The notes beneath the pieces were generated by a model. The model did not search any database and was not told the origin of the DNA. It was given only the letters and a program-made list of their open reading frames with translations. Positions 4,764-62,254 of a stretch of 64,000 nt of DNA are shown in pieces. The position numbers were made by a program, and so were the translations under genes. The first letter of the stretch is position 1. Each line of letters opens with the position of its first letter. Source of the stretch: an uncultured Elusimicrobiales bacterium (lineage in GTDB: Bacteria; Elusimicrobiota; Elusimicrobia; Elusimicrobiales; Elusimicrobiaceae); contig CALUXE010000004.1 in the NCBI GenBank assembly GCA_944324675.1, positions 1 to 64,000 of the forward strand. Reading direction: 5' to 3'.

Positions 4764-7700
4764 ATGAGAAAAACTCTAAAGTTTATAACTATTATTGCGG
4801 GTTTATTAATTTTTGGATCGGAGCTTATGGCTCAAACGGCGATGGTAACCCAAAATTTGGTGGTCTATCAGCCGAGTAGTGATAAAGACGATGCCCATTG
4901 CCAAATAACGGATTTGGACGCGGCTTTTAATACCCCTGCCAACAACAGGTCCTATTCTACTGCGACCATACAGCCCGTAAACTCTAGTGACCCGTGGGTC
5001 AATTCCGCTTTGATAGAGTATTCCCAGATAACAATGGGTAATAGAGAGACAGGATATAACTATACCTATCCCAATAGTTGTTTGTCTTTATGCGCGGAAG
5101 TAACCTGCAGCAACCCGGCCAGACTTGTTGAAGGTTCCGATGATTCGGGCACTGGTACCGATACTCGAATATATACGGTAAAGAGCGGGGATTTTCCGAT
5201 ACAGAGCGTATTGTTTGAGATATTCAAATACCAGCAAAACGGCAATCCTTACAATCCCGATTCCACTCCGCCGATAAGGACTATAGCTTTATATCCTACG
5301 GACGGCAACAATATATGCTACGGCGTCGGCGTTCCCAGCAATAGCGTGGAGAACACCTCTGACTGCTGTTCTTCAATAAATTGCGAAGCCCATCCTACAA
5401 ATGCTTGTAATACTACATCTGTAAATTTTTGTAAAGGGGCGAACAATGTTACCGCTACAGCGCAAGCGAATTGTAGGGCCGGCAGAACGGTATTGCATTT
5501 TTGCGCGGCGTGGGACGGCACGTATGAGATAGACGGGGAGTTTGGGCAGAGCAACGGTGATTTTGGATACAGGACGACGATATCAAGCAACTGGCCCGGG
5601 GACGGGGTGAGCACTCCGGAGATAGACATTTCGCACACGATAGTATATCCCGGGGAGAACCAGATTCCGATACAGGTAGACGTAACGAACATACACTCTG
5701 TTAGGAGCACGCCTACGCTGGTAGGGCAGAAGACGGCGGTAACGGCGCAGCCGTACAATATCAATTACAGGATAAGCAAGGACGCTACCGTAACGATAAA
5801 CATATACGATCCATCTGTTGGGATAAATCAGGAAGATCGTCTGTTAGTAAGGAACCTGGTAAACAATTTGCCCAGGGAAGGTGAAGGCTTTCAAGGCGGG
5901 GGAGTAGGCAGCAGCGAAGAGACGATAACGACGATGTCCGAGGCTTGGGACGGCCGGGACAACGAAGGGCGTTTATTGCCGTTTGGCAACTATGTGGTAA
6001 GTTTGAGGGCGACGTCTGTAGACGAGTGGGATCAGCCGGGGAACAACTCTTTCCCGAAATCTGACGTATCTAGAACGGTAATGAGGCAGTTATCATTGGA
6101 TCCATTGAAGATAACGGACATAGAGGCAAAGGGTTTATCGAAGACGAGCACGGCGTACGCGATGCTGAACTACATATTGACGGAAGACGCGACTATCCAT
6201 TTGGAGATATACACGCCGGGCACGACGTTTGAAAGTATCAATATAAATAAGATTTCAGCGAATAATGGGACAGCTTGTACGGACGGTTATTGCAGTTGGA
6301 TGAATGGTGCGTATGCCGCTCCGAAAGTAAAGAACAATAGCGGTTACAAGGTATTTAGTTTGACTGAACAGAAGGCGGGCCGCACGAAGGTAAACAGCAA
6401 ATGGGACGGTATGTGCTGGGGCGACGCGCAGACATGCGCGAATGCGGTGCAGACGGTATTAACGGGGAGTGTCGTTACAGGCGCGGACGCGAGCGGGGTG
6501 ACGGATTACAGCGGAGTGGCATTGCCTGACGGGGACTATGTATACGCGTTATGGGCGGAGATACCCTACAATGACACTATAGATATAAACACGTACAGAT
6601 GGGACGGCGTCAAGACGGCGGTAATAGAGAGCGGGATATTAGGGATAAACAGGGGCTTGCCCGAGCTTACGGTAGGGAGCGTAGGGTATAGCACGATAGG
6701 GTCTAGCCCGGTGGCGCACGGATTGGATCCGTTTATATTTACGTACGCGTTATCAAGGGACGCGTATGTGACGGCGCAGGTATTGACTACGAGCTATGAC
6801 GCGGGGGATAACAGCAGTGTAGGGCCGTATGTAGTGAAGACATTGCTGGACAACGAGATTCAGACATCGGCTAGCGGCGGGAACAAATTATCTTGGGACG
6901 GTATAGACGACAACGGTCGGTACGTGACGCAGGGCAGTTATTTATTTAGGGTAATAGCGCGGGACAGTTTATATCCTACGAAGGTAGTGACGAGCACGGT
7001 AGAGTTTCCGATAGATTTATTTAGGGTAGTGGACGTACAGACGACGAGTTTATTGGAAGACTCGACGTCGCAGGCTACGATCAGCTATGTACTTAGCAAG
7101 AGCATGGACGTAACGCTGAACATATATGACAAGGACGTAGTGATACCGAACGACATAACGGCGGACAATTGGGAGCCGCAGGTATGTCCGGCGGGTACGG
7201 ACATAAGCAGCGGTAAGGTGCAGTGTATATATAGGAAGGGGGATGACGGCCGTATAATAATAGATCCGACGATAGAGCCGATAAAGAGTTTTACTGGCGC
7301 GCGGCAAGGAGAGAGCCGGGTGACGGAGTTTTGGGACGGATACTATGAGGAAGACAGCAGCGGCGGCACTACGCAGGCGATGTATCCGGACGGATTTTAC
7401 CCGTACTATATATATGCTAAGGCGAACGTAGCGGGGAGCAAATATTACAGCACCAAAACTGTCGGCGGGAGCGAAGTATTGGTTCCACAAGATCCTAAAC
7501 AGGACGAGGACAGCGGCTTTTTAAGCTCAATAAACGCTACGGACCAACCAACGGGGTACATAACGATAGCGAGGGGGCCGGTATATTTTACGAAGATCCA
7601 GATAACGCCGAGCAGTCCGAAGCTGGTATACAGTTCGGAGACGATCCAGATACCTACGTACGAGGTATTATTCGGGGTAACAAGGACGGCGAGCGTCCAG

Positions 7701-8867
7701 GTGCAGATAGTATCGTTGAGCGACGGGGCGTGCACGGGCGCGAACGGGAGCGGTCGTGGTACGGTGTGCCGAGTATTGACGAAGACGACGATGGATAATT
7801 TGAGCACGATATATGACGGGAATATAGAGAACAAGCTGTACTGGGACGGTAAAGACGAGCAAGGCAACTACGTAAAGAGCGACGCTTATCAAGTGCGGTT
7901 TATAGCGGAGCCGTATCCGCAGGCTGAAGGGATAGGGCAGACGATAGAGTCCAGGATAATAAACGTAGACAACTTTCAGATATTTGACAGGTACACTACG
8001 GACGTGACGCGGGATAACGGGGGGATAGGGACGTTTGCGTATCAGGTATCGGTTCCGATGAAGGTGGCGATCCAGATATTTAAGCCGGGAACGATGACAA
8101 GCGGAGCGGCGGACGGGACATTGATAGATCCGGCGGATCCGACGGGTCCGGCGATAAACGAGAACAGTATAGACAAGGTATTGGTGAAGGCGATAATAGG
8201 GGTAAGCCCGCACTTAATACCGATAGAGAGGGTATGGGACGGAACGGATTACAGGGGGCAGCAGGTGCCGGACGGCATATATCCGTTCAGGTATGTGAGC
8301 GTATTGGACTCGTACGATATGGACAGCGTAAACGGGTCGATAAGGATAGATCGGGATCAGAGCGATGTAACGACGAAGGTAGCGGACTGGGACAAGTACG
8401 TGAATTTGGAGAACATCATGGTAGTGAACGGGGACAGCTGGTACGCGGACTTGGATTGGAAGAGCGATAAGGTGACGATGTTCTATCCGAACCCGTTGAG
8501 GCAGAGTTACGGACAATTTGAAATAACGAAGGTACCGGCGCCTGGCACGGTAAGCATAAAGATATACAATATAGCGGGCGATTTGGTAAGGGACGGCGGA
8601 TATGAGTGTATGAACGCGCGGGGAGTGACGAGCAGTTTGGAGCAGATAAACAACAGCGGCGGGATAGATCCGGACTGGACGACGAACACTGGCGGAGTGG
8701 GAGAAGTGGAAGGAGGCGGGAACTTTGCGTTAAGGTGCAAATGGGACCGGACGAACAATCACGGGAGGAAGGTAGCGAGAGGATTATACTATGCGATAAT
8801 GGAGCTTAGTCCGACGAGGGGCAATGCGGTGAAGTCGCAGAAGGTAATCAAGATCCTTATACCATAA
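4764..8867 (+). CDS. giant secreted FlgD-Ig-repeat surface protein, copy 1
   Basis: This 1367-aa protein has a signal peptide (cleavage expected after the MAQ region at about residue 24). The N-terminal segment of about 220 residues is cysteine-rich. Seven FlgD-like Ig modules follow, each marked by W-D-G/R...G...G-x-Y. The C-terminal module has a YPNP motif, an IYNIAGDLV strand and a WDRTNNHGRKVARGLYY end, resembling type A sorting domains of type 9 secretion cargo. The protein is identical to the 9068 copy after the signal peptide. It is probably displayed on the surface as an adhesin-like fibre; the function is unknown. It has its own leader upstream and no PorV-like gene directly behind it. 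Confidence 0.85.
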   Translation: MRKTLKFITIIAGLLIFGSELMAQTAMVTQNLVVYQPSSDKDDAHCQITDLDAAFNTPANNRSYSTATIQPVNSSDPWVNSALIEYSQITMGNRETGYNYTYPNSCLSLCAEVTCSNPARLVEGSDDSGTGTDTRIYTVKSGDFPIQSVLFEIFKYQQNGNPYNPDSTPPIRTIALYPTDGNNICYGVGVPSNSVENTSDCCSSINCEAHPTNACNTTSVNFCKGANNVTATAQANCRAGRTVLHFCAAWDGTYEIDGEFGQSNGDFGYRTTISSNWPGDGVSTPEIDISHTIVYPGENQIPIQVDVTNIHSVRSTPTLVGQKTAVTAQPYNINYRISKDATVTINIYDPSVGINQEDRLLVRNLVNNLPREGEGFQGGGVGSSEETITTMSEAWDGRDNEGRLLPFGNYVVSLRATSVDEWDQPGNNSFPKSDVSRTVMRQLSLDPLKITDIEAKGLSKTSTAYAMLNYILTEDATIHLEIYTPGTTFESININKISANNGTACTDGYCSWMNGAYAAPKVKNNSGYKVFSLTEQKAGRTKVNSKWDGMCWGDAQTCANAVQTVLTGSVVTGADASGVTDYSGVALPDGDYVYALWAEIPYNDTIDINTYRWDGVKTAVIESGILGINRGLPELTVGSVGYSTIGSSPVAHGLDPFIFTYALSRDAYVTAQVLTTSYDAGDNSSVGPYVVKTLLDNEIQTSASGGNKLSWDGIDDNGRYVTQGSYLFRVIARDSLYPTKVVTSTVEFPIDLFRVVDVQTTSLLEDSTSQATISYVLSKSMDVTLNIYDKDVVIPNDITADNWEPQVCPAGTDISSGKVQCIYRKGDDGRIIIDPTIEPIKSFTGARQGESRVTEFWDGYYEEDSSGGTTQAMYPDGFYPYYIYAKANVAGSKYYSTKTVGGSEVLVPQDPKQDEDSGFLSSINATDQPTGYITIARGPVYFTKIQITPSSPKLVYSSETIQIPTYEVLFGVTRTASVQVQIVSLSDGACTGANGSGRGTVCRVLTKTTMDNLSTIYDGNIENKLYWDGKDEQGNYVKSDAYQVRFIAEPYPQAEGIGQTIESRIINVDNFQIFDRYTTDVTRDNGGIGTFAYQVSVPMKVAIQIFKPGTMTSGAADGTLIDPADPTGPAINENSIDKVLVKAIIGVSPHLIPIERVWDGTDYRGQQVPDGIYPFRYVSVLDSYDMDSVNGSIRIDRDQSDVTTKVADWDKYVNLENIMVVNGDSWYADLDWKSDKVTMFYPNPLRQSYGQFEITKVPAPGTVSIKIYNIAGDLVRDGGYECMNARGVTSSLEQINNSGGIDPDWTTNTGGVGEVEGGGNFALRCKWDRTNNHGRKVARGLYYAIMELSPTRGNAVKSQKVIKILIP

Positions 8868-9067: not shown

Positions 9068-12000
9068 ATGAATAACAGAAACGATAAAAATGTTTTAAGA
9101 GAAATATCCGGCATATTTGCAAAAGCGGCAATGTTCGCTTTTGCATTGTTTTATGGGGCGCTTTTCGCAAACGCTCAGACGGCGATGGTAACCCAAAATT
9201 TGGTGGTCTATCAGCCGAGTAGTGATAAAGACGATGCCCATTGCCAAATAACGGATTTGGACGCGGCTTTTAATACCCCTGCCAACAACAGGTCCTATTC
9301 TACTGCGACCATACAGCCCGTAAACTCTAGTGACCCGTGGGTCAATTCCGCTTTGATAGAGTATTCCCAGATAACAATGGGTAATAGAGAGACAGGATAT
9401 AACTATACCTATCCCAATAGTTGTTTGTCTTTATGCGCGGAAGTAACCTGCAGCAACCCGGCCAGACTTGTTGAAGGTTCCGATGATTCGGGCACTGGTA
9501 CCGATACTCGAATATATACGGTAAAGAGCGGGGATTTTCCGATACAGAGCGTATTGTTTGAGATATTCAAATACCAGCAAAACGGCAATCCTTACAATCC
9601 CGATTCCACTCCGCCGATAAGGACTATAGCTTTATATCCTACGGACGGCAACAATATATGCTACGGCGTCGGCGTTCCCAGCAATAGCGTGGAGAACACC
9701 TCTGACTGCTGTTCTTCAATAAATTGCGAAGCCCATCCTACAAATGCTTGTAATACTACATCTGTAAATTTTTGTAAAGGGGCGAACAATGTTACCGCTA
9801 CAGCGCAAGCGAATTGTAGGGCCGGCAGAACGGTATTGCATTTTTGCGCGGCGTGGGACGGCACGTATGAGATAGACGGGGAGTTTGGGCAGAGCAACGG
9901 TGATTTTGGATACAGGACGACGATATCAAGCAACTGGCCCGGGGACGGGGTGAGCACTCCGGAGATAGACATTTCGCACACGATAGTATATCCCGGGGAG
10001 AACCAGATTCCGATACAGGTAGACGTAACGAACATACACTCTGTTAGGAGCACGCCTACGCTGGTAGGGCAGAAGACGGCGGTAACGGCGCAGCCGTACA
10101 ATATCAATTACAGGATAAGCAAGGACGCTACCGTAACGATAAACATATACGATCCATCTGTTGGGATAAATCAGGAAGATCGTCTGTTAGTAAGGAACCT
10201 GGTAAACAATTTGCCCAGGGAAGGTGAAGGCTTTCAAGGCGGGGGAGTAGGCAGCAGCGAAGAGACGATAACGACGATGTCCGAGGCTTGGGACGGCCGG
10301 GACAACGAAGGGCGTTTATTGCCGTTTGGCAACTATGTGGTAAGTTTGAGGGCGACGTCTGTAGACGAGTGGGATCAGCCGGGGAACAACTCTTTCCCGA
10401 AATCTGACGTATCTAGAACGGTAATGAGGCAGTTATCATTGGATCCATTGAAGATAACGGACATAGAGGCAAAGGGTTTATCGAAGACGAGCACGGCGTA
10501 CGCGATGCTGAACTACATATTGACGGAAGACGCGACTATCCATTTGGAGATATACACGCCGGGCACGACGTTTGAAAGTATCAATATAAATAAGATTTCA
10601 GCGAATAATGGGACAGCTTGTACGGACGGTTATTGCAGTTGGATGAATGGTGCGTATGCCGCTCCGAAAGTAAAGAACAATAGCGGTTACAAGGTATTTA
10701 GTTTGACTGAACAGAAGGCGGGCCGCACGAAGGTAAACAGCAAATGGGACGGTATGTGCTGGGGCGACGCGCAGACATGCGCGAATGCGGTGCAGACGGT
10801 ATTAACGGGGAGTGTCGTTACAGGCGCGGACGCGAGCGGGGTGACGGATTACAGCGGAGTGGCATTGCCTGACGGGGACTATGTATACGCGTTATGGGCG
10901 GAGATACCCTACAATGACACTATAGATATAAACACGTACAGATGGGACGGCGTCAAGACGGCGGTAATAGAGAGCGGGATATTAGGGATAAACAGGGGCT
11001 TGCCCGAGCTTACGGTAGGGAGCGTAGGGTATAGCACGATAGGGTCTAGCCCGGTGGCGCACGGATTGGATCCGTTTATATTTACGTACGCGTTATCAAG
11101 GGACGCGTATGTGACGGCGCAGGTATTGACTACGAGCTATGACGCGGGGGATAACAGCAGTGTAGGGCCGTATGTAGTGAAGACATTGCTGGACAACGAG
11201 ATTCAGACATCGGCTAGCGGCGGGAACAAATTATCTTGGGACGGTATAGACGACAACGGTCGGTACGTGACGCAGGGCAGTTATTTATTTAGGGTAATAG
11301 CGCGGGACAGTTTATATCCTACGAAGGTAGTGACGAGCACGGTAGAGTTTCCGATAGATTTATTTAGGGTAGTGGACGTACAGACGACGAGTTTATTGGA
11401 AGACTCGACGTCGCAGGCTACGATCAGCTATGTACTTAGCAAGAGCATGGACGTAACGCTGAACATATATGACAAGGACGTAGTGATACCGAACGACATA
11501 ACGGCGGACAATTGGGAGCCGCAGGTATGTCCGGCGGGTACGGACATAAGCAGCGGTAAGGTGCAGTGTATATATAGGAAGGGGGATGACGGCCGTATAA
11601 TAATAGATCCGACGATAGAGCCGATAAAGAGTTTTACTGGCGCGCGGCAAGGAGAGAGCCGGGTGACGGAGTTTTGGGACGGATACTATGAGGAAGACAG
11701 CAGCGGCGGCACTACGCAGGCGATGTATCCGGACGGATTTTACCCGTACTATATATATGCTAAGGCGAACGTAGCGGGGAGCAAATATTACAGCACCAAA
11801 ACTGTCGGCGGGAGCGAAGTATTGGTTCCACAAGATCCTAAACAGGACGAGGACAGCGGCTTTTTAAGCTCAATAAACGCTACGGACCAACCAACGGGGT
11901 ACATAACGATAGCGAGGGGGCCGGTATATTTTACGAAGATCCAGATAACGCCGAGCAGTCCGAAGCTGGTATACAGTTCGGAGACGATCCAGATACCTAC

Positions 12001-13210
12001 GTACGAGGTATTATTCGGGGTAACAAGGACGGCGAGCGTCCAGGTGCAGATAGTATCGTTGAGCGACGGGGCGTGCACGGGCGCGAACGGGAGCGGTCGT
12101 GGTACGGTGTGCCGAGTATTGACGAAGACGACGATGGATAATTTGAGCACGATATATGACGGGAATATAGAGAACAAGCTGTACTGGGACGGTAAAGACG
12201 AGCAAGGCAACTACGTAAAGAGCGACGCTTATCAAGTGCGGTTTATAGCGGAGCCGTATCCGCAGGCTGAAGGGATAGGGCAGACGATAGAGTCCAGGAT
12301 AATAAACGTAGACAACTTTCAGATATTTGACAGGTACACTACGGACGTGACGCGGGATAACGGGGGGATAGGGACGTTTGCGTATCAGGTATCGGTTCCG
12401 ATGAAGGTGGCGATCCAGATATTTAAGCCGGGAACGATGACAAGCGGAGCGGCGGACGGGACATTGATAGATCCGGCGGATCCGACGGGTCCGGCGATAA
12501 ACGAGAACAGTATAGACAAGGTATTGGTGAAGGCGATAATAGGGGTAAGCCCGCACTTAATACCGATAGAGAGGGTATGGGACGGAACGGATTACAGGGG
12601 GCAGCAGGTGCCGGACGGCATATATCCGTTCAGGTATGTGAGCGTATTGGACTCGTACGATATGGACAGCGTAAACGGGTCGATAAGGATAGATCGGGAT
12701 CAGAGCGATGTAACGACGAAGGTAGCGGACTGGGACAAGTACGTGAATTTGGAGAACATCATGGTAGTGAACGGGGACAGCTGGTACGCGGACTTGGATT
12801 GGAAGAGCGATAAGGTGACGATGTTCTATCCGAACCCGTTGAGGCAGAGTTACGGACAATTTGAAATAACGAAGGTACCGGCGCCTGGCACGGTAAGCAT
12901 AAAGATATACAATATAGCGGGCGATTTGGTAAGGGACGGCGGATATGAGTGTATGAACGCGCGGGGAGTGACGAGCAGTTTGGAGCAGATAAACAACAGC
13001 GGCGGGATAGATCCGGACTGGACGACGAACACTGGCGGAGTGGGAGAAGTGGAAGGAGGCGGGAACTTTGCGTTAAGGTGCAAATGGGACCGGACGAACA
13101 ATCACGGGAGGAAGGTAGCGAGAGGATTATACTATGCGATAATGGAGCTTAGTCCGACGAGGGGCAATGCGGTGAAGTCGCAGAAAGTGATAAAAATCCT
13201 TATACCATAA
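9068..13210 (+). CDS. giant secreted FlgD-Ig-repeat surface protein, copy 2
   Basis: This 1380-aa protein is identical to the 4764 product from the QTAMVTQNL residues onward. It carries a different, longer N-terminus: a polar stretch of about 20 residues, then a hydrophobic signal ending FANAQ. The domain layout is the same, with a cysteine-rich head, seven FlgD-like Ig modules and a YPNP sorting-like tail. The stop is followed after 18 bases by the PorV-like gene with no terminator between, so the two are co-transcribed. That makes this copy the one physically tied to a candidate outer-membrane partner. The different promoter and signal peptide suggest different expression or targeting. Confidence 0.85.
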   Translation: MNNRNDKNVLREISGIFAKAAMFAFALFYGALFANAQTAMVTQNLVVYQPSSDKDDAHCQITDLDAAFNTPANNRSYSTATIQPVNSSDPWVNSALIEYSQITMGNRETGYNYTYPNSCLSLCAEVTCSNPARLVEGSDDSGTGTDTRIYTVKSGDFPIQSVLFEIFKYQQNGNPYNPDSTPPIRTIALYPTDGNNICYGVGVPSNSVENTSDCCSSINCEAHPTNACNTTSVNFCKGANNVTATAQANCRAGRTVLHFCAAWDGTYEIDGEFGQSNGDFGYRTTISSNWPGDGVSTPEIDISHTIVYPGENQIPIQVDVTNIHSVRSTPTLVGQKTAVTAQPYNINYRISKDATVTINIYDPSVGINQEDRLLVRNLVNNLPREGEGFQGGGVGSSEETITTMSEAWDGRDNEGRLLPFGNYVVSLRATSVDEWDQPGNNSFPKSDVSRTVMRQLSLDPLKITDIEAKGLSKTSTAYAMLNYILTEDATIHLEIYTPGTTFESININKISANNGTACTDGYCSWMNGAYAAPKVKNNSGYKVFSLTEQKAGRTKVNSKWDGMCWGDAQTCANAVQTVLTGSVVTGADASGVTDYSGVALPDGDYVYALWAEIPYNDTIDINTYRWDGVKTAVIESGILGINRGLPELTVGSVGYSTIGSSPVAHGLDPFIFTYALSRDAYVTAQVLTTSYDAGDNSSVGPYVVKTLLDNEIQTSASGGNKLSWDGIDDNGRYVTQGSYLFRVIARDSLYPTKVVTSTVEFPIDLFRVVDVQTTSLLEDSTSQATISYVLSKSMDVTLNIYDKDVVIPNDITADNWEPQVCPAGTDISSGKVQCIYRKGDDGRIIIDPTIEPIKSFTGARQGESRVTEFWDGYYEEDSSGGTTQAMYPDGFYPYYIYAKANVAGSKYYSTKTVGGSEVLVPQDPKQDEDSGFLSSINATDQPTGYITIARGPVYFTKIQITPSSPKLVYSSETIQIPTYEVLFGVTRTASVQVQIVSLSDGACTGANGSGRGTVCRVLTKTTMDNLSTIYDGNIENKLYWDGKDEQGNYVKSDAYQVRFIAEPYPQAEGIGQTIESRIINVDNFQIFDRYTTDVTRDNGGIGTFAYQVSVPMKVAIQIFKPGTMTSGAADGTLIDPADPTGPAINENSIDKVLVKAIIGVSPHLIPIERVWDGTDYRGQQVPDGIYPFRYVSVLDSYDMDSVNGSIRIDRDQSDVTTKVADWDKYVNLENIMVVNGDSWYADLDWKSDKVTMFYPNPLRQSYGQFEITKVPAPGTVSIKIYNIAGDLVRDGGYECMNARGVTSSLEQINNSGGIDPDWTTNTGGVGEVEGGGNFALRCKWDRTNNHGRKVARGLYYAIMELSPTRGNAVKSQKVIKILIP

Positions 13211-13220
13211 TATCGGGACG
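9179..13220 (+). repeat. 4.0-kb direct repeat, unit 2
   Basis: This is the partner of 4836-8877. Identity starts exactly at the codons after the signal peptide and ends ten bases past the stop codon, apart from four clustered synonymous differences at 13186-13195. Recombination between the units would delete or invertibly exchange signal peptide and promoter contexts. Confidence 0.95.
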
Positions 13221-13228
13221 ACAGATTT

Positions 13229-14215
13229 ATGAAAAACAATAAATATATTAAGCTTTTAACGATAGTGACAATATTTTCCCTGCTTGGCGTCTGGGCGGAA
13301 GCCGCGGGCCCTTATGAAAGAGCAGGCACCAGCGCTAGTGCTTTTTTGAAACTCGGCACCGGCGCGCCTGAAGCCCAAGCTTTGGGCAATGCCTATACGG
13401 CGCTTTCAAGCGGGGCGCAGGCATTGTTTTGGAACCCTGCGGGTATAGCCACCAGCACCACTAGAGAAATACAGGTTTCCCATATGCAGTGGTTTGAGGG
13501 CGTTGGCGACAGCGCCGTAGGTTATATCCAACCGATAGGCAAAACTGTTCTGGGTGTAAGTTTAAGGTATATGCGTTTATCCGGAGACGACCTTAACCCC
13601 AGAGATCCGGGCGGCATACCTTACGATATTACGGGCGACGCGATACGGGACTTTGTGGCGGCGGTTTCTTTGGGAAGGACCTTCTTCGGCGTATTGGACA
13701 TAGGCGGTACTGCCAAGTATATCAATGAAGACAACGTCGGCGTAAAACATATCAATCCCGCATTTGATATCGGCGGTAAACTGAGAATATCCAACAACAG
13801 ATTTGTGATAGGCGTTATGGGACAGAACCTCGGAGATCCGGACGAAGTGCCCTCGGCTATCAGAGGCGGCGCCGCGATAAACACCAAATATTTTACGATA
13901 TCGGGCGAAATCGTGGATTATGTTGACGATAAATTGAGATACGGCGTCGGCCTTGCGATACATATTCCCGAGGAGCTGGTGCAAGTTGCCTCTTTTGACA
14001 TAAGGGTAGGTTACTATAACCGTGAGAACACGGGCTGGGCTGAAGAGGGCGACATAGCCGAAAAGATCGGCTTGGAAACGACTTCAAAGGTAACTTTGGG
14101 TTTCGGTTTTTACAGCAGCGAAGTCCTCGGATATGGATTGGGTCTTGACTACGCGATGATGCCTTCGGGCGCATTGGGTACGGCCCATCAATTGGCGGTT
14201 AGATTGCAGTTCTAA
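13229..14215 (+). CDS. PorV/PorQ-family outer-membrane barrel protein
   Basis: This 328-aa protein has a signal peptide (about residues 1-25). The next segment, with AFLKLGTGAPEAQALGNAYT and then ALFWNPAGIA, is the hallmark of the PorV/PorQ (FadL-like, UPF0164) family. The rest alternates short amphipathic strands and ends with an aromatic residue (VRLQF), as outer-membrane barrels do. In Bacteroidota PorV shuttles type 9 cargo by binding C-terminal sorting domains. Its place 18 bases behind a protein with such a domain suggests an analogous partnership here; this is inference. The Tad locus starts 30 bases downstream. Confidence 0.82.
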   Translation: MKNNKYIKLLTIVTIFSLLGVWAEAAGPYERAGTSASAFLKLGTGAPEAQALGNAYTALSSGAQALFWNPAGIATSTTREIQVSHMQWFEGVGDSAVGYIQPIGKTVLGVSLRYMRLSGDDLNPRDPGGIPYDITGDAIRDFVAAVSLGRTFFGVLDIGGTAKYINEDNVGVKHINPAFDIGGKLRISNNRFVIGVMGQNLGDPDEVPSAIRGGAAINTKYFTISGEIVDYVDDKLRYGVGLAIHIPEELVQVASFDIRVGYYNRENTGWAEEGDIAEKIGLETTSKVTLGFGFYSSEVLGYGLGLDYAMMPSGALGTAHQLAVRLQF

Positions 14216-14659: not shown

Positions 14660-14666
14660 TTTGACG

Positions 14667-15137
14667 ATGATAAAGAAACGTGATGGCCAAACGGTAATAG
14701 AGTTGATATTGATTCTGCCGGTATTCTTGATGATAATATTTGTCGTTTTGGAACTGGGGAATATGGCCTATCGCATGATTTTGGCGCATCACGTTTCTTA
14801 TGAGCTTGCGAGAGTAGGGTCTTTGGTGGGGGTGAGGAAGCACAGCGATAACACCGACAGCCAAAGAATAAACAGTAAAATGAAGGAAGCTCTTAACAAG
14901 ATGTTTGGTCAGCGCGGAGCGCAGAATATGCAATTTTCCGCGGTTCTGCAAAAGACCAGCAATGATCCGCAAGTAAAGAATCACGCTAATGAAGACTTGG
15001 TAGTGACGTTTGTATACAAAGTGCAGTTGTTGTTTCCTCTGACGAGTTATATTTTTGCCGATGAGCCCAAGCGTTTGGGCATAAAGAGGATAAAGGCGAC
15101 GGTAAGAATGCCGGTGGAGCGGCCGTTGCTTAATTAG
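14667..15137 (+). CDS. tadE: TadE-like minor pseudopilin
   Basis: This 156-aa protein has a short leader MIKKRDG, then QTVIELILILPVFLMIIFVVLELGN, the TadE/TadF motif with Glu at +5, and a soluble C-terminal domain. TadE-family pseudopilins are required for Flp fibre assembly. I prefer the ATG at 14667, six bases into the open frame that begins with TTG at 14661. It is separated by seven bases from the Flp gene. A GCCGC/GCGGC hairpin without a T-run follows the stop. Confidence 0.85.
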   Translation: MIKKRDGQTVIELILILPVFLMIIFVVLELGNMAYRMILAHHVSYELARVGSLVGVRKHSDNTDSQRINSKMKEALNKMFGQRGAQNMQFSAVLQKTSNDPQVKNHANEDLVVTFVYKVQLLFPLTSYIFADEPKRLGIKRIKATVRMPVERPLLN

Positions 15138-15223
15138 ACGCGGGGCCGCCATAGAGCGGCTATTAAGGAATAAGAAGTTAAAACGGATTTTTATTATATA
15201 GGCAGTTTTTAAAGGAGCTTTAC

Positions 15224-15982
15224 ATGAACAAAAAGAATATTATGCTTCCGGTAGTGATAGCTATAGCGGCGGCTTTAATATATTATTTTGTGCTTTACAT
15301 GGCGCAGGGTAAGATAAGAGAAACTTCCAAAATGGAAAAGGTGGCTGTAGCCGCGGTGGATTTGCCTGAGGGAAAAATGATAGTAAGAGGCAATATAAAA
15401 GAGATAGACATTCCCACTGCCTATATTCAGAAAGACGCTTATGTAATATCTAGGGGAGCGAATTTGAGCGACATAGAAAATTTGGTTACGAAAGTGGCCA
15501 TAGCGCGCGGCAATCAAATAACGAAGCCGTCGGTAACCAGTTTGAGCCCCGAATCGGGCATAAGTTTAAAGGTAATGCCGTCATACAGGGCATTTATATT
15601 GCCGGTCGATACGAACGTTTCGAGCTTAATAAAGCCGGAAGACAAAGTCGACGTGTTGCTTACTTTTGACGCCATGATAAAGAACGGCGGCGGCAAGGAA
15701 AAGATGACGGCGACGATTTTGCAGGATATACCGGTTCTCGGCGTTGGCGGGAACTTGGGGCAGGGCATGGATTCCGCTTCCAGAGCGGCGAACGCGGAGC
15801 GGGAGGCTAACAATGCGGCGTTTTCGGACAGGTCGGTATTAAGCTTGTCGGTATCGCCTGTGGAAGCGCAGTATTTGGCCTTGGCGCAGGAAGAAGGCGT
15901 GATTACGGTTATCGTAAGGTCTAACGGCGACAGGAAGGTATTGCCGATAGAGATATCCAGCTTCTCCAAGCTGTTCAGTTAA
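15224..15982 (+). CDS. cpaB: Flp pilus assembly protein CpaB/RcpC
   Basis: This 252-aa protein has an N-terminal transmembrane segment (residues 7-27) and a SAF domain (about 40-110, with VAAVDLPEGKMI and ITKPSVTSL). A periplasmic domain typical of CpaB/RcpC follows, ending in the SPVEAQYLALAQEEG helix. CpaB acts in the periplasm with the secretin during Flp pilus biogenesis. AAAGGAG lies seven bases before the ATG. It stands between tadE and the secretin, as in many tad loci. Confidence 0.88.
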   Translation: MNKKNIMLPVVIAIAAALIYYFVLYMAQGKIRETSKMEKVAVAAVDLPEGKMIVRGNIKEIDIPTAYIQKDAYVISRGANLSDIENLVTKVAIARGNQITKPSVTSLSPESGISLKVMPSYRAFILPVDTNVSSLIKPEDKVDVLLTFDAMIKNGGGKEKMTATILQDIPVLGVGGNLGQGMDSASRAANAEREANNAAFSDRSVLSLSVSPVEAQYLALAQEEGVITVIVRSNGDRKVLPIEISSFSKLFS

Positions 15983-16016
15983 AGGAATTTAAAATTATTT
16001 AAGGGATTATACAAAT

Positions 16017-16760
16017 ATGAAAAATCAGAAATATGTTTTAAAAGCTTTAACAATGATCTTAGCCTTTACGGCGCTGGCAATAAGCGCGGAAGCTAAGAAG
16101 ACGGAGTTGGTAGCCGTCAGCGCCGATATCGTAGAAATTAGCGGCTCCTTGACGACCTCTAAAGGCTTTGCGTGGAACCAGCTGCTGGATTTCAGCGAGA
16201 AAGAAATTCCGGGGATATTCTCGATAGGCGAGTTTGAGAGGAAGTCTTTGCTTACCACTCGTTTAAAACTTATGGAAAATGAGGGAAAGGCGCAAATACT
16301 TTCCAACCCGAAAGTTATAGCGCGCTCCAACACCAGCGCCAACTTTTCCGCGGGCGGGCAAATACCTTATCCCGTGGTAAGCGACAGGAACGTCGGCACG
16401 GAAATGAAGGAATACGGCGTTAAATTGGACGTAATGCCCACGATTATACCGGAAAGGAACAATATAATAATAGTGCAGTTGGAAATAGAGCTTTCCAACC
16501 CGGATTATTCCAGAAGTTTGACGATTAACGGTTCCACTGTTCCTTCAATGACGAAGAGATTTTTGAGATCCGAGGTCGAGCTCAACAGCGGCGAGACTTT
16601 GGTTATAGGCGGTTTAAAGAGCAGCACCAGAAGCGTCGCGGAAGACAGAGTGCCGATACTGGGCAAAATCCCCCTTATAGGATTGCTTTTCAAGAATAAG
16701 GATATAACGGAAGAACAAAGGTCTTTATTCTTGTTCATAACGGTAGAGATCGTGGAGTAA
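16017..16760 (+). CDS. minimal Tad secretin (CpaC/RcpA-like)
   Basis: This 247-aa protein has a signal peptide (cleavage near residue 26) and then essentially only one N-domain-like segment. It ends with the secretin C-domain: KAQILSNPKVIARSNTSANFSAGGQIP, GVKLDVMPTI and the terminal VPILGKIPLIGLLFK hallmark. RcpA/CpaC proteins are normally about 450-550 aa with BON and N modules, so roughly half is missing. It could be a genuine mini-secretin, or the N-modules may be supplied by another protein. There is no sign of a frameshift upstream within the 34-base gap to cpaB. Confidence 0.82.
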   Translation: MKNQKYVLKALTMILAFTALAISAEAKKTELVAVSADIVEISGSLTTSKGFAWNQLLDFSEKEIPGIFSIGEFERKSLLTTRLKLMENEGKAQILSNPKVIARSNTSANFSAGGQIPYPVVSDRNVGTEMKEYGVKLDVMPTIIPERNNIIIVQLEIELSNPDYSRSLTINGSTVPSMTKRFLRSEVELNSGETLVIGGLKSSTRSVAEDRVPILGKIPLIGLLFKNKDITEEQRSLFLFITVEIVE

Positions 16761-16764
16761 TAAT

Positions 16765-18984
16765 ATGGAAGAAACGCAGGGATTGTCCGGCTCACCAAGA
16801 GTAATAGCGTTTACCGGCCCGAAAGAGGGCGTAGGCAAAACGACGCTTGTGTTAAATTTGGCCATAGCTTGGGCTGAAATGCAAAAAAGGCCCGTGCTGA
16901 TAGTTCCTTTGGACCCTTTGGCCAGGCAGGAACATGGCTTTTATCTGGGAATAAGGAAGCCGGTAACGGTGGTAGATCTCGTGCGGGCGCTGGGCTCGGG
17001 CGCGATAGCGATAGCGGGCGGTCTTTTAAGAGGAAAAGTTTCGATGACTCAAGTGGGGGTAGGAGTTTTGCCTTTGGGTTCCACCAGACAGGAAGTATCG
17101 TTGATATCCCCTAAAATATTGCTGCCGATGCTTTCGAGGCTGCAGCAGACTTTTGACATATTTCTTGACGTCGATTCCAGTTTTCCCATGGAATCGTTCG
17201 CTTTTGATATAGCCGATAAGATTTTTTGGGTTACGAATTGTACCCGTTCACATTTAAATACCGCGGTATCGATGTTTACCGATTTTAAGGAAATGCATTT
17301 TCCTATTGACCGTATCGACATAATTTGCAATCAATACAATTTGCCCGGCGCCATAGACCACGAAGAGGTAAACCAATTCTTTATAAAACTCGGGCGCGAG
17401 CCGATAGTGTATCTTACTTGGGAGGAAAGCGTTTTCGAGTCCTCCAACAAGAGGGAAATAGAGATTTTGGTCAACCGCAGCTCCCTTTGGGTTCAGGAAG
17501 GTTTAAAACCTATTCTGAAGGTTATAGAAGATACCTCTACGATAGAGAAGAACTGGTCGACGGTAGTTCCCGACAGTGAATTTGTTTCGGCCGCCAAAAA
17601 CATATGGGAGGCCGCGCCTATATTGACAGGAAACGTGAAAGGGCCCAACCATTTTGATTCCGGCGATACTGAGCTGTCTTATTGGGATTCTTTAAAGCAG
17701 CAAGTGCATAAAGACGTTATTAAGACTTTGGAAGTAGAGCGTATAGTAATAAGCGAAGAAGGCTCCCAAAACGAACAGACCAGGAAACGAGTTTCCGTAA
17801 TTATAGACGAAGTTCTGCGCAAGAAGGCGAATGTACAGCTTTCGCGCGACCAAAAGATAAGGTTTATAAACGAATTATTGGACGAAATTTTGGGATTGGG
17901 GCCATTAGAGGCCTTGATGAGGGATCCGTCCGTCACGGAAATCATGGTAAACGCTTATGACAAGATTTTTATCGAGCAGAAAGGCAAGTTGACGCTTACG
18001 CGCTATAAATTCCGCAACAATGACCAAGTGGTGCAAGTGATAAAGAGGATAGTGGCGCCGTTGGGCAGGCGTATAGACGAATCCGTACCGTTGGTGGACG
18101 CGAGATTGAAAGACGGTTCCCGCGTAAACGCGATCATAGCGCCTTTGGCGGTTTCGGGCCCCTCGCTGACGATAAGGCGTTTCTCCCAAAAGCCGTTCGG
18201 GCCGGAAGATTATTATCGTTTTGGTACGATTGACCGGGATACGATGTACTTTTTGGAGAGCTGCGTTAAACTGAGAAAGAACATTATTATATGCGGCGGT
18301 ACCGGTACCGGTAAAACTACATTTTTAAACGCTTTATCCAGTTATATTCCCGAGAACGAGCGTATCGTTACGGTGGAAGATACGGCGGAGTTGAGGCTTC
18401 AGCAGGAGCACTGGGTTTCTTTGGAAAGCAGGCCGGCGAACATCGAGGGAAAAGGCGAGATAACGATTAAGGATTTGGTAAAGAACTGTCTGCGTATGAG
18501 GCCCGACCGAATAGTGGTCGGCGAGTGCCGCGGCGCGGAAGCTTTGGATATGTTGCAGGCGATGAACACGGGCCATGAAGGTTCTTTGGCTACGATTCAC
18601 GCCAACACTCCTCGCGACGGACTTACGCGTCTTGAGGCTATGTGCATGATGGCAAGCGCGGACTTGCCGATATGGGCTATCAGGGAGATGATTTCCTCGG
18701 CCGTAAACTTGGTGGTGCAGCTGTCCAGATTTTCCGACGGGAGTAGGAAGGTTACCTATGTAACGGAGATATGCGGGCAGAAAGACGGGGTAATACAAAG
18801 CAGGGATTTATTCCGCTATGTACAGACGGGCGTAAACAAAGATGGCAAGGTGGAAGGTACATTTGCGCCTACGGGCGATTTGCCGACATTCTTCCCCGAG
18901 TTTAAGGCAAAGGGTATAGATGTTCCCGAAGCTACTTTTGAGAGGAAAGAATCGGCGGCCAAAACGGAAGAGGCGGCCGCGTAG
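16765..18984 (+). CDS. TadZ-TadA fusion: MinD-like localiser joined to Flp pilus ATPase
   Basis: In this 739-aa fusion, residues 1-260 form a MinD/CpaE-like P-loop domain (GPKEGVGKT at 18-26). Residues about 310-690 are the CpaF/TadA secretion ATPase, with Walker A GGTGTGKT at 511-518, the VEDTAEL Asp box, Walker B with RMRPDRIVVGECRG, and the His box ATIHANTPRDG. TadA powers pilus assembly and TadZ recruits the machine to its site. In studied systems these are separate proteins encoded side by side, so here localisation and motor are covalently coupled. An acidic/alanine tail closes the protein. It is four bases from the secretin gene. Confidence 0.92.
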   Translation: MEETQGLSGSPRVIAFTGPKEGVGKTTLVLNLAIAWAEMQKRPVLIVPLDPLARQEHGFYLGIRKPVTVVDLVRALGSGAIAIAGGLLRGKVSMTQVGVGVLPLGSTRQEVSLISPKILLPMLSRLQQTFDIFLDVDSSFPMESFAFDIADKIFWVTNCTRSHLNTAVSMFTDFKEMHFPIDRIDIICNQYNLPGAIDHEEVNQFFIKLGREPIVYLTWEESVFESSNKREIEILVNRSSLWVQEGLKPILKVIEDTSTIEKNWSTVVPDSEFVSAAKNIWEAAPILTGNVKGPNHFDSGDTELSYWDSLKQQVHKDVIKTLEVERIVISEEGSQNEQTRKRVSVIIDEVLRKKANVQLSRDQKIRFINELLDEILGLGPLEALMRDPSVTEIMVNAYDKIFIEQKGKLTLTRYKFRNNDQVVQVIKRIVAPLGRRIDESVPLVDARLKDGSRVNAIIAPLAVSGPSLTIRRFSQKPFGPEDYYRFGTIDRDTMYFLESCVKLRKNIIICGGTGTGKTTFLNALSSYIPENERIVTVEDTAELRLQQEHWVSLESRPANIEGKGEITIKDLVKNCLRMRPDRIVVGECRGAEALDMLQAMNTGHEGSLATIHANTPRDGLTRLEAMCMMASADLPIWAIREMISSAVNLVVQLSRFSDGSRKVTYVTEICGQKDGVIQSRDLFRYVQTGVNKDGKVEGTFAPTGDLPTFFPEFKAKGIDVPEATFERKESAAKTEEAAA

Positions 18985-18996
18985 AAAGGACAAGCC

Positions 18997-20601
18997 ATGA
19001 AATTCCTAAAAAAGTTTTTGATAGCAGTTTTGATAAGCGGGACTTCTGCCGTCGCTTTGCATGCGCAGGGCATATTTACCGCAAACCAAAGCGACAGGAT
19101 AGCCTGCGCCAAAGAACGGCTATACGCGCTATACAATTTTTTGGACGCGTCTAAGCCTACCGATCAAAAAACTTTTGAGCCTGTGGCCTGCGGCAGCGGG
19201 GCCAAAGCCGTTCCCATGCCTAAATATCTTGATAAGCTGCTGCCGGAAATGGATATGAAAAGACTATGGCAGGTATCGGCGGGCGAAGGCGGCGCAATGG
19301 AGTATTACAGCGAAGCGGAGATGTGGCGCCAGCCGATAGGGCTTATCTTCAACTTTTTGGAATTGATGGAGCAGATAAACAGCGGCGGGGCTTATACTAC
19401 GGCCGACACGATAGAGCGTATAACTAAATTTAAGACGCAGATGATAGTGTATATCGACAGATTAAAGAGCCGCCCCTCAAATTATGAGCTGCGCGACAGT
19501 ATGGAAGGCCGCGGCCGTTCAATGATAGCAACGTTGGATTTAATAGACGCGGAGATGGGCAGCGTATTGGAATCGTTTAAGGTTTCGCCGTGGCTGTGGC
19601 GGAGTAGATTTAGAAAAGCAGTGATGGGAGTAGTTACATTATCCAACAGTCTGTACGGGGATATGGTAACGACCAAGCCTTTGGTAATGCCTGACCCAAA
19701 GAGTAAGCATAGCACCAATGATATAGCGATAACGATATTTATGCTGTTGGGTACGATATCCGTATTTATAAGCGGGTATATGCTGATTTCGGACAGGAAC
19801 GATCAAATATCCAAGGCCATAGGCCAGTATATGCAAAAGAGCTCTTTATGGGCGGAGGACTACAGCAGGCAATTCTTGGATATAAACGTAAAGTACATAG
19901 TATTGGGGACCTTGTTTTTCTTCTGCGTATTGGGCGCGCTGTTTGGCATGGGCGCCGGCGGATTTACCGGAGTGTTGATGTTTGCGGTATTTTTCGCGAT
20001 GGGTTTGACTTTTGGGTTGAAAATGCCGGGGATAATATTGGGCATATTGAAGAAACGCCGCGGCGAGAAAGTGAACGCCCAGCTGATGGACGCTTTAATA
20101 TTGCTGTCGAATTCTTTGAAATCGGGTATGGATATAGTCCAGGGCTTTGATATGGTATCAAGGGATTTAAAGCCGCCGATATCGGACGAATTTTCTTTGG
20201 TAATCAAAAACTACAAATTGGGCGCTCCGTTTGAGAAAGCTTTGGAAGGTATGGAAGACAGAATAGAATCAAGGCTGCTTTCGTATATGGTAAAGGCGAT
20301 AGTATTGCAGAGGCAAGTCGGCGGCAACTTAACGAAGATTTTTGAAAGGATAGTGGAAAATATAAGGGAAGAGAGCAAGCTGGAGGAGAAACTTCAGGCG
20401 ATGACGGCTCAGCAAAGGATACAGGCGATAGTCGTCGGTGTTATGCCGTGGGTAATGGTAGGCGTAATGTTTATGTTCCAGCCCGACACTATGATAAACT
20501 TCTATACTTCCACAATAGGCATAGTAGTGTTATTTATGTGTATAGTGTGGATAGGCATCGGTATCAAGTTGGTAAACAAATTAGGGGAAATAAAGGTATA
20601 G
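18997..20601 (+). CDS. tadB: TadB-like inner-membrane platform protein with extra N-terminal domain
   Basis: This 534-aa protein has a cleavable-looking signal (residues 1-23, ending ALHAQ), then about 220 residues with no recognised motif, predicted periplasmic. A transmembrane segment lies near residues 246-266, two more near 305-350, and then the T2SSF/GspF-type domain (LLSNSLKSGMDIVQGFDMV and LQRQVGGNLTKIFERI). It ends in two helices. Typical TadB is about 300 aa and lacks a secreted N-domain. It probably forms the platform with TadC for the TadA motor. The N-terminal addition is unusual. Confidence 0.85.
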   Translation: MKFLKKFLIAVLISGTSAVALHAQGIFTANQSDRIACAKERLYALYNFLDASKPTDQKTFEPVACGSGAKAVPMPKYLDKLLPEMDMKRLWQVSAGEGGAMEYYSEAEMWRQPIGLIFNFLELMEQINSGGAYTTADTIERITKFKTQMIVYIDRLKSRPSNYELRDSMEGRGRSMIATLDLIDAEMGSVLESFKVSPWLWRSRFRKAVMGVVTLSNSLYGDMVTTKPLVMPDPKSKHSTNDIAITIFMLLGTISVFISGYMLISDRNDQISKAIGQYMQKSSLWAEDYSRQFLDINVKYIVLGTLFFFCVLGALFGMGAGGFTGVLMFAVFFAMGLTFGLKMPGIILGILKKRRGEKVNAQLMDALILLSNSLKSGMDIVQGFDMVSRDLKPPISDEFSLVIKNYKLGAPFEKALEGMEDRIESRLLSYMVKAIVLQRQVGGNLTKIFERIVENIREESKLEEKLQAMTAQQRIQAIVVGVMPWVMVGVMFMFQPDTMINFYTSTIGIVVLFMCIVWIGIGIKLVNKLGEIKV

Positions 20602-20604
20602 AAT

Positions 20605-21495
20605 ATGAACTTGGGCGCATATACTGTAATAATGTTGGTGGTGGCGGTGTTCGGGGCGGTAGCTGTAATGGTGGCCGTGCTCAGGATTTTATCCCCTTCG
20701 GAAGATAAGGCCGACATAGCGGATTTGGAGGCTAAGCAAATAAAATCCACTTCCAGCTTCGCCAAGCTGCGCCCGCAGGAACGTTTTTTGGATCGTATTG
20801 CGCTCTTCGTCCTGAACACGTTTAAGCTGCAAAAACCACTGGAAGAGATGTATATGCTGATGGGCAGTCCGGCAAAGCCCCAGCCCGTGGATATATTATA
20901 TTATAAGATATACTGCGCGATAGGCTTGCCGATACTCTTGATGTTGGTGTTTAAAACGCCGATACTTATAATAACGGTGCCTTTGGGTTTCTATTTGCCG
21001 GATTTGAAATACAAAGGGGAAATACAAAAACGTCAGCAGGAGATGTTGGGTAATTTCGCTACTACGGTAGACCTGACGGCATTGATAATAGAATCGGGTT
21101 TGGACTATATGACCGCTTTTGAAAGGATAATAAAGATAGCCAAGCAAAAGACATTGCTTGAAGAGGAAATAGAGAAAACTTTAAACGAGACGAAACTGGG
21201 GTATTCCAGGCGCGAGGCTTTGGAACGTTTGGCCGCGCGGACCGGCGTACAGGACATAAGGTCATTTGTAGGGTTGATAGTACAATCTGACGAATTGGGG
21301 ACAAGTTTGGTCGATTTGCTTAGGAATTTTTCTACGGACTTGAGGTTCAGAAGGTTGAATAAGGCCGAGAAATTGGCGGCGCAGGCCTCCACGAAAATGT
21401 TGATACCGTTGTTTATATTTATATTTCCGGTGGTTTTCATTTTGATAATTGCGCCGATGGTGGCAGATTTTACTAGGGGCGGGATGCCCTTTTAA
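20605..21495 (+). CDS. tadC: TadC-like inner-membrane platform protein
   Basis: This 296-aa protein has an N-terminal transmembrane helix (7-27), paired helices near 95-130, and a T2SSF domain with ATTVDLTALIIESGLDYMTAFERI and LVQ-type SDELGTSLVDLLRNF signatures. A C-terminal hydrophobic pair ends PVVFILIIAPMV. Length and topology match TadC. It starts three bases after tadB and precedes a TPR gene, the normal tad order. Confidence 0.9.
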   Translation: MNLGAYTVIMLVVAVFGAVAVMVAVLRILSPSEDKADIADLEAKQIKSTSSFAKLRPQERFLDRIALFVLNTFKLQKPLEEMYMLMGSPAKPQPVDILYYKIYCAIGLPILLMLVFKTPILIITVPLGFYLPDLKYKGEIQKRQQEMLGNFATTVDLTALIIESGLDYMTAFERIIKIAKQKTLLEEEIEKTLNETKLGYSRREALERLAARTGVQDIRSFVGLIVQSDELGTSLVDLLRNFSTDLRFRRLNKAEKLAAQASTKMLIPLFIFIFPVVFILIIAPMVADFTRGGMPF

Positions 21496-37353: not shown

Positions 37354-40300
37354 ATGCCAAATAAGGATAGCTTTACGTTTAGCGATAAGTTAAAGAAGAG
37401 TAAATCTCTTCCATTATCCAAACGTATTCCCTCCCGTGTAGGAGGAGACGGCAAAGCCAAGCGGACTTTAATTCAAAGAGCCCAAAGGGATTTGCCATTT
37501 ATAATAGTGGCCGTAGCGGCTTTATTGCTGCTGCCATTATTGAGCCGCCACGGCGGCACTGACGGGGCCGGTTTTGAAGGCTCGGGTTACGACGATTTTG
37601 TAGGGCAATCCCTGTATGACTATCCGTCTTCCGGCGACGGTGAAATCGTCCCCAGCACGGGCTATAGAGATCCTATGGACTACATTATAACCAATCGCAG
37701 CGGAATGGATACTCCCAGCTTAAGCGATAGCTATGATTCCGAGGATCCCTCCTTATACATATCGCGTGCGCAGGATTCTTATGCGGACTCCAAACCTCAA
37801 AGAGAGATATATAAGGATGTGGCAAAGCCCGGCATTCGAAACGCGGTACAGCGCAAAGCTACGGCGATAGGGGCGTTTAGGAACCGCGCGATGAGTTTCG
37901 GCGGATCCACTTCCGGCTTGAGCCGCAACCTGGCGATAGGCGGCGCTCCCACGACTGCGGGCGCGGCCGCGGCCAGAGTCGGCGTAAGGCCTGTAGCCTT
38001 GCAGCCTCTGACTTCAGGCGGCAAAGGCAGGGTGCTTACCGGCGAGGGTTTATATGCCGAGGCTGCCCGTTCTTTAGGCGCTTTGAACCAAGGTTCGGCC
38101 AAACAGGCTTTGTTTGAAGCTCAGCTTCGCGATGTCGACGGCACCCCTTTAGGCGCGCCCGGCGACTCGAGAAGGGCCGCCGCCAGAATAGGCTCTCAGG
38201 GCAGGGTCCCCGACCACAAGTTTGGATACACCAATGAACGTCCTTGGTGGTGGGATATGATGAATGAGCGTTCCCAGAAGATGTGGGAGCTTTGGAATTA
38301 CAACTGGCAGAAAGCTTTATCCGATTCGCTGATAAAAGTATCCACCAACTTGGCGATGTGTCTTTTGACGGGTTCTCAAGACGGTTCCGTAGAGAAATTT
38401 TTGGGCGTCAAAGGCGGGTCTAAGGATATATGCTGTCTTGTCGACGGCAAAGAAATTTGCGCCGGCGACATTGGCGATTATACGTCTTCCACCAGCGGGT
38501 CGGGCGACAGTAAAGAAACGACTAATAATTCCTTCTCGTCCATACAAGCTTTTTGCGAGTCGCACGAATCCAAAGTATATGTTTCCGAATCCGGGGCTAA
38601 GAACTTCTTGCAGGCCAGGCTCGAGTGTATGGGCTTGAAAGCGGGAAAAATGGCTTGGGCTTCAGGCACTAACTATGCGGCTTCTTGCGCGAACGTAAAT
38701 AAAACCCCCATGGTGTATAAAGCAAGCGCGAGGCGTAAAGCCGACGGCAAAGTAAGAAGCGGAAAACAGGAAAAGGTTGTGGTATACGTTAAAGCCAAAC
38801 CTAGAGACAAAAGCGTCGATACCGGCACTAAAGACAACGAGTTCGTTATAGCCTTGGAAAAAACTAATGAATTCACTTTAAGCCAATCACAGCTTGAGGC
38901 TATTAACAAAAACTGCGAGATTACAAGAGTAGGTTCTTTCGCGGCCAAGAACTCAAAAAGAAAAATCGGCAAGAAAGTCGGCCAGTATAACGACCTTAAC
39001 GATGACTCGGATTCCAAGAAGGTTAAGGAGGACGACGACGCGATAGAAAAGAGAATCGCCGAACTTGAAAGCGAATTGAGAAGAACAAATAACGAGAAAG
39101 AGCGAACGGAATTGAACCGCGAGTTGACTCTATTAAAAAAAGGGAGATATACACCTGAAGCCGAAAGCGAAAACGCCGAAGAAGAAGAGAATAACGAAAC
39201 GGAAGCAATGATAAACTCTTATGTAAGAGGCCAGGTGGCCGCGCAGTATAACTATTGTACGGGCGGCAATACCAAACCGGCGAAATTCATTGATGAAGAC
39301 GACATCATGAAAGACCTCAGGGTAAAGGCTGAAATAAATGATGTCTGCCCGATATGGTATTCCGAAGGTACGATAAATGATCGCACCGTTAACGGCCTAA
39401 CCTGCAATACTCAGCAGAGCGGGGTTGACTTTGTTGAAATAGACAAATTGTCCAGGTCTACTTTCTCGGTTACCGTTAATAATCCTAAAGACTACATCTA
39501 CGCGATATTCTTGGAAGAGGTTCAGAGCGCGCAAGACCAGAACGGCAAGTCGGGCGTTATCGTCAAGCATTATGTAAAAGATACGGCGGAAGAAACGTCC
39601 TCCGGCAATGATATGGTCCATTCCAATGTAACGATGGGCGAAGATGGCAGAATAACTTCGGCGACCTATACCGTACCTTATTACAGAGCGGGCAAAGCTC
39701 CGGAGAGTACTCAGAGCAATACGGTAGGCTCCGTACCCGGCAACGGTAAAGTGTTCTGGTTGATGACCAATAAGGAAACGCCGATCGTAAAGGCAGGGCA
39801 CGTATTTGAGGGGAAAGTCCTTTCCGAGATAAATGCGGAAGATCTTATCGGCCCTACGGCCGGCCATAAAGAGGGAGAATGCTTCTACTCGTGGGGTTGC
39901 AACGGATCGGAATGCCCGGATAAGGCTCCTATTGCGACATTATGCAAAGATGGCGAGAAGATCTATAGAGCCTCAAAGTATAACGATTATTACTTTAAGC
40001 ATAATACCACGCCAATGACTGAGCAAGAAATTAATGATTATGCTAAGAGTCATGCGGAATATGATATAGGGGCTTTTAAGAATAAATTACCGTCGTGTAA
40101 TTCCATATGTAAACATAAAGAAGGCGTATATGGCATATTGGGAGGAACTGACGAAGAAAAGGCCCTACAACTAGAACTAGATTCTTCCATAGTGGCGCAG
40201 GAAATCTTGAACAATTGCCCTTCCTGCAATCCGCAGGAAGACAATTCAACCCCCGAAGAAGCAGCCCTTGCTCGTAACGACGAGAACAACTATGAGCATG

Positions 40301-58321: not shown

Positions 58322-58749
58322 TATTTATTCTCCTTTTTTACGAAAAGTTTTATTCCGTCTACTTTATAAACTTTAACTTTGTCGCCCTGAGAGAGTTTTT
58401 CCTCGCAGAAGAGTTCCCACAAGTCCCCGTCGTTTTTCGCGTAGTATTTCCCCGTTTGTCCGTTTGTTTGGCTTACGGTAAGCTCTTTCCCAATCAAGGC
58501 CTCCATATTGCTTTTGAACCCTTCTCCTTTCTTGTTAAGGTATTTAAGCACCAGCGGCCTAAGGGTAAAGAATAGGATAAATATCGTCGCGGCAACGGCT
58601 GCCAGCTGCCAATATGTTCCCAAACCAAGCCAGCTTAGAAGAGCCGCAACCATTGAAGCTATAGCGAAACAAGTAAGTGAAAAGTCCATTGTAAATATCT
58701 CGCCTATAAGCAAGACAATGCCCAAAATAAGCCAATAATGAGCAGGCAT
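58321..58749 (-). CDS. NfeD-family membrane protein
   Basis: This 142-aa protein has three to four transmembrane helices (about 5-25, 28-45, 48-72) and a C-terminal NfeD OB-fold (about 85-140, with GKELTVSQTNGQTGKYY and GDKVKVYKVDGIKLFV). It is the short NfeD1b-type form without a ClpP-like domain. It pairs with the SPFH protein encoded next to it. CGGAGGG lies four bases before the ATG. Confidence 0.9.
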   Translation of the reverse strand: MPAHYWLILGIVLLIGEIFTMDFSLTCFAIASMVAALLSWLGLGTYWQLAAVAATIFILFFTLRPLVLKYLNKKGEGFKSNMEALIGKELTVSQTNGQTGKYYAKNDGDLWELFCEEKLSQGDKVKVYKVDGIKLFVKKENK

Positions 58750-58784
58750 AAACCCTCCGTTTGTAAATGTAGATTACGAAAGAT

Positions 58785-58813
58785 TATACAAATATTTAAT
58801 CTTATGCTACAAT
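58785..58813 (+). promoter_or_regulatory. promoter of the secreted protease operon
   Basis: TATACA (58785-58790), a 17-base spacer and extended -10 TGCTACAAT (58805-58813). The leader of about 35 bases carries GGAGGAG five bases before the ATG at 58855. Confidence 0.65.
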
Positions 58814-58854
58814 GGAAATATATTTTTGTATTCATCCTTGTAGGAGGAGTGTTG

Positions 58855-62253: not shown

Positions 62254-62254
62254 T

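Follow-up and report, generated by a model that had tools for sequence, protein, structure and literature searches.

The closest described systems are the type A and type B branches of the type 9 secretion system (T9SS) of Bacteroidota. PorV docks at a side opening of the translocon SprA; within the pore, the C-terminal sorting domain (CTD) attaches to loops of PorV, and the two exit sideways together (PMC10994853). Type B cargo has a private PorP/SprF barrel that is encoded directly downstream and also anchors the cargo (PMC12618676, PMC9143113). A 2016 survey placed the T9SS in Bacteroidetes only (PMC4793230), and a 2024 paper allowed its genes in other phyla of the Fibrobacteres–Chlorobi–Bacteroidetes (FCB) group and described them as absent from the remaining phyla (PMC11285876). 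We found no report of a T9SS or PorV in Elusimicrobiota or Endomicrobia in the open-access literature. Here, we analyzed a 64,000-nt stretch (the window; G000:C4:1-64000) of contig CALUXE010000004.1, from the genome of an uncultured Elusimicrobiales bacterium (G000; 1.4 Mb, 99.7% complete), in which genes for CTD-bearing proteins directly precede genes for PorV-family barrels. The locus likely encodes both the cargo of a divergent type-9-like export system and the carrier cognate to that cargo. For the reading as a T9SS-type sorting domain with a partner from the PorV family, support comes from the sequence, the predicted fold, the pairing across the order, and the co-loss with SprA across the phylum. 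The genes concerned are as follows.

4764-8867, + strand: cargo copy 1 (1367 aa), with a Sec-type signal peptide (assigned by eye), FlgD_ig-like repeats and a CTD at about 8484-8864
9068-13210, + strand: cargo copy 2 (1380 aa), with the same protein body as copy 1 and a different signal peptide
12827-13207, + strand: CTD of copy 2, with YPNP, IYNIAGDLV (β3-β4 loop motif, conserved Gly), GLYY and the end KVIKILIP; predicted immunoglobulin (Ig)-like β-sandwich
13229-14215, + strand: PorV1, a PorV-family outer-membrane barrel (328 aa) with 14 predicted strands, beginning 18 nt after the copy 2 stop
58738-62253, + strand: second cargo, an M4/thermolysin-like metallopeptidase with FTP and PepSY domains, HEYVH (HExxH) at residue 606 and a CTD at about 62020-62250 ending in ...KKIVVVK
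62255-63358, + strand: PorV2, a second PorV-family barrel (367 aa), directly after the metallopeptidase cargo

By homology, the cargo ends in a type-A-like CTD with a predicted Ig-like fold. A CTD profile built from 36 relatives and compared with solved structures matched the PorU CTD best (E = 2e-5), followed by FlgD (E = 1e-4). The AlphaFold model of the domain (predicted local distance difference test, pLDDT, 79) also aligned best with the PorU CTD (Z = 9.6), with the CTDs of PorZ and of NucA from the translocon complex lower in the list; other Ig-like folds score closely (Z ~9), and the fold alone is therefore not decisive. The IYNIAGDLV motif parallels the RgpB pattern and corresponds to the β3-β4 loop motif with a glycine that matters in Bacteroidota CTDs (PMC11285876), and the KxxxxK-like C terminus is likewise shared with type A. 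With the curated models, the CTD of copy 2 scored 14.7 bits (whole protein) and 20.8 bits (last 160 aa) against TIGR04183 (cut-off 23) and 14.7 bits against PF18962 (cut-off 27). The CTDs of the window fall short of the TIGR04183 cut-off; 27 of 40 relatives have CTDs that exceed it. A PF18962 search of the source genome found nothing at E ≤ 0.001, this model being too strict here, and a scan of 36 CTDs with the type B model TIGR04131 yielded no match up to E = 0.05. An insert of the domain (12728-13207 and homologues) carries a conserved Cys pair, YECM ... LRCKWD, possibly a disulfide. Sorting domains of relatives also occur in giant open frames, the longest of 13,077 aa, as well as in frames of 180-200 aa, the latter mostly without a PorV neighbor (for example G025:C6:189665-189931 and G024:C20:113856-114101).

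The barrels are assigned to the PorV family of carriers. PorV1 and PorV2 scored 77.8 and 89.0 bits, respectively, against PorV_fam (NF033709; cut-off 90). A 37-sequence profile of PorV1 had a single significant match among solved structures, PorV of the Flavobacterium johnsoniae SprA complex (6h3i_F; E = 1.8e-13). The predicted model of PorV1 (pLDDT 82, 14 strands) matched PorV best (Z = 30.4 and 30.2); because the Z-scores of FadL-type channels are only slightly lower, it is chiefly the sequence that supports assignment to this family. Like FadL/TodX proteins (PF03349), these are 14-strand barrels with an N-terminal plug and an NPA motif; unlike them, PorV1 has no match to PF03349 at E up to 1, and PorV2 reaches 17 bits against a cut-off of 29.7. 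The genome's only other PorV_fam-like match (C2:28.6-29.7 kb; L015:8499-9776) is FadL-type by sequence and was not counted as a third PorV; the adjacent open reading frames (ORFs) that were read included no CTD gene.

The pairing of CTD and PorV genes extends across the order. In 22/22 relatives whose upstream gene is readable, the PorV1 orthologue is immediately preceded by a CTD, and a CTD-like end precedes the PorV2 match in 15/15 cases read, nine of them from a second family; within the genus, only some of the genomes have a close PorV2 orthologue. In nine paralogue-rich relatives, at least 40 of 87 CTD places, a lower bound, are directly followed by a same-strand PorV-like gene, against a random expectation of 0.2. 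Among the matches listed, a PorV-like gene stands upstream of the CTD at 3 of the 87 places and on the opposite strand within 1.5 kb at none. CTD-PorV adjacency is not chance. Placement of the carrier gene immediately after that of the cargo, with many pairs per genome, is a trait of the type B CTD and PorP/SprF (PMC12618676, PMC9143113), whereas the CTD here is type-A-like and the barrel of the PorV family. In Bacteroidota type A, one PorV is shared; here, many PorV paralogues each lie by a cargo gene. A preliminary description of the window had proposed that copy 2 ends in a type-A-like sorting domain, that the next gene encodes a PorV-family barrel, and that this gene order recurs. All three proposals hold, the second instance spanning 58738-63358, and the adjacency check across genomes that it called for returned a nonrandom pairing. 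In one relative (G032, L052:6168-8999, - strand), a single open frame encodes both cargo and PorV; it lacks the last CTD residues and keeps the PorV signal peptide inside. We set this fusion aside as Rosetta-stone evidence, since the retained signal peptide and lost CTD end make a deletion or assembly error equally likely.

The same description had seen no SprA, which proved wrong at genome scale. The source genome encodes a full-length, divergent SprA/Sov translocon homologue of 1812 aa on another contig (G000:C2:137104-142539, identical to L050:9105-14540). Against NCBIfam, this protein matched SprA alone (TIGR04189, 126 bits, E = 8.5e-37; cut-off 200), and nothing convincing was found in Pfam. 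Among PDB entries, an alignment profile of 22 homologues matched SprA alone, over stretches that are colinear (E = 1e-19); a single-sequence phmmer search gave no match, the alignment profile alone succeeding. The homologue shares 98% identity with its counterpart from an uncultured Elusimicrobiales metagenome-assembled genome, and the informatively named matches of that scan are all from Elusimicrobiota, which makes the source organism a gut-type member of this phylum. The homologue is shorter than SprA of Bacteroidota type A systems (~1800 versus 2403 aa). TIGR04189 found matches in the source genome and 40/40 relatives, at about 77-140 bits over 2319 positions. The LptF/LptG-SprA-ComF neighborhood is largely conserved and common to most relatives (homologues L053, L058-L077). 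Across 217 genomes of the phylum, SprA was detected in 203 and PorV in 203; both occur in 199, neither in 10, SprA only in 4 and PorV only in 4 (Fisher p = 1.8e-11, phylogeny not corrected for). In three of the four SprA-only genomes, the SprA matches are weak and partial. The co-loss also appears within family f12 (p = 8e-6) and within one genus (p = 1e-3), again uncorrected for phylogeny. The suggestion of a reduced or different export route thus fails for the pore, which is type-9-like, and may hold for the motor, GldM and GldL not having been detected.

The two cargo copies lie in tandem and encode proteins that are identical past the signal peptide and share FlgD_ig-type repeats and the CTD; that copy 1 carries the same CTD is an addition to the preliminary description. 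The genes (4764-8867 and 9068-13210) differ at 4 nt over ~4,030 nt, yet their signal peptides differ. In several same-genus relatives, the contig ends within ~180 nt of PorV1, the pattern expected of a repeat. Because of these contig ends, the cargo duplication may be common, perhaps through recent duplication or gene conversion. An ORF resembling a Flp pilin follows PorV1 in most relatives, which shows that throughout the order the first pair is a fixed part of a Tad pilus locus. Elsewhere in the window, a 1285-aa protein (37354-41211) matches no Pfam family at E ≤ 0.001. The pilus genes of the window are the following.

14661-21495, + strand: Tad/Flp pilus genes downstream of PorV1 (TadE, RcpC, secretin, T2SSE ATPase, two T2SSF)

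Several results weigh against a type-9-like system. All three components score under their curated cut-offs (TIGR04189, 126 of 200 bits; NF033709, 77.8 of 90; TIGR04183, below 23 in the window), and in structure FadL-type channels resemble the PorV1 model nearly as closely as PorV itself does (Z = 29.1). PorV occurs without a detected SprA in four genomes, and the co-loss test ignores phylogeny, with most losses in one family (f12, genomes of 0.6-2.2 Mb). In 40 genomes, the GldM profile (524 positions) found nothing and GldL gave no convincing match, both searches having low sensitivity and no true positive control; they covered these two motor proteins, GldK and GldN (PorK and PorN) not being searched for. 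The best GldL match (G032:C4, 21 bits) is a coiled-coil protein, RmuC-like by eye, and was rejected as a motor. The C25 protease domain of PorU (PF01364) had no match, and its control matched nowhere either. Because SprA itself is so faint, none of these negatives is proof of absence. It is indeed quite conceivable that a complete, orthodox T9SS is present, with a motor, ring and sortase too diverged for the profiles used: SprA lies near the detection limit, and a 250-residue GldL equally diverged would be invisible. This explanation has to accommodate the long GldM profile without a match, as well as the missing C25 match, for what it is worth without a positive control.

The location of the first pair beside the Tad/Flp pilus locus across the order could indicate that the PorV-like barrels are surface anchors or receptors only, with cargo leaving by another route such as the neighboring Tad secretin. 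We regard this as improbable, since, as far as their surroundings were read, neither the second pair nor the dozens of relatives' pairs adjoin this Tad operon, and SprA is lost jointly with PorV. Another reading, in which the barrels serve as small-molecule channels of the FadL type or as accessory components of the β-barrel assembly machinery (BAM) and the CTDs are FlgD-type Ig repeats without an export role, is very improbable. FadL and a Bacteroidota BAM-associated FadL-type barrel do align to the PorV1 model at Z = 25-29, and the CTD profile also reaches FlgD. By sequence, however, PorV alone is significant, the CTDs form the C-terminal ends of their proteins and are followed directly by PorV-like genes far more often than chance predicts, and the genome has a separate, real FadL-like gene.

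Genes, homology, predicted folds, gene order and co-loss underlie the reading as a type-9-like export system, and from them we infer docking, surface exposure and anchoring. Cargo would cross the inner membrane via Sec, and its C-terminal Ig-like tag would enter the pore of the SprA-type outer-membrane translocon encoded elsewhere in the genome. The PorV-type barrel from the next gene would dock at the SprA side opening, bind the tag and take the cargo out sideways. The barrel probably remains bound and so tethers the cargo to the surface, in the way that PorP/SprF holds Bacteroidota type B cargo; an anchor is probable because no PorU-like sortase was detected and each cargo has a private barrel. 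Since a type-A-like tag and a PorV barrel are combined here with the private-partner genetics of type B, the barrels may be cognate PorV-type carriers that double as anchors. A bolder and rather doubtful extension is that the Elusimicrobiota translocon works without a GldLM-type motor or PorU sortase, the private PorV carrier being a permanent anchor, and represents a simpler or older T9SS branch outside the FCB group.

In contrast to Bacteroidota type A systems, this one belongs to a phylum outside the FCB group, and GldL/M and PorU went undetected. T9SS-type machinery seems to exist well outside Bacteroidota and related phyla. Automatic annotation may already have given some of these proteins PorV/PorQ family or T9SS sorting domain labels, as several pass NCBI cut-offs. 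The near-universal set of SprA, PorV and CTD in Elusimicrobiota changes the known distribution of the T9SS and offers a comparison for the core of the type 9 system. The energy source of the pore becomes a testable question in a lineage where the usual motor went undetected, and the set also allows a prediction of the surface proteome of this phylum, a common inhabitant of animal guts.
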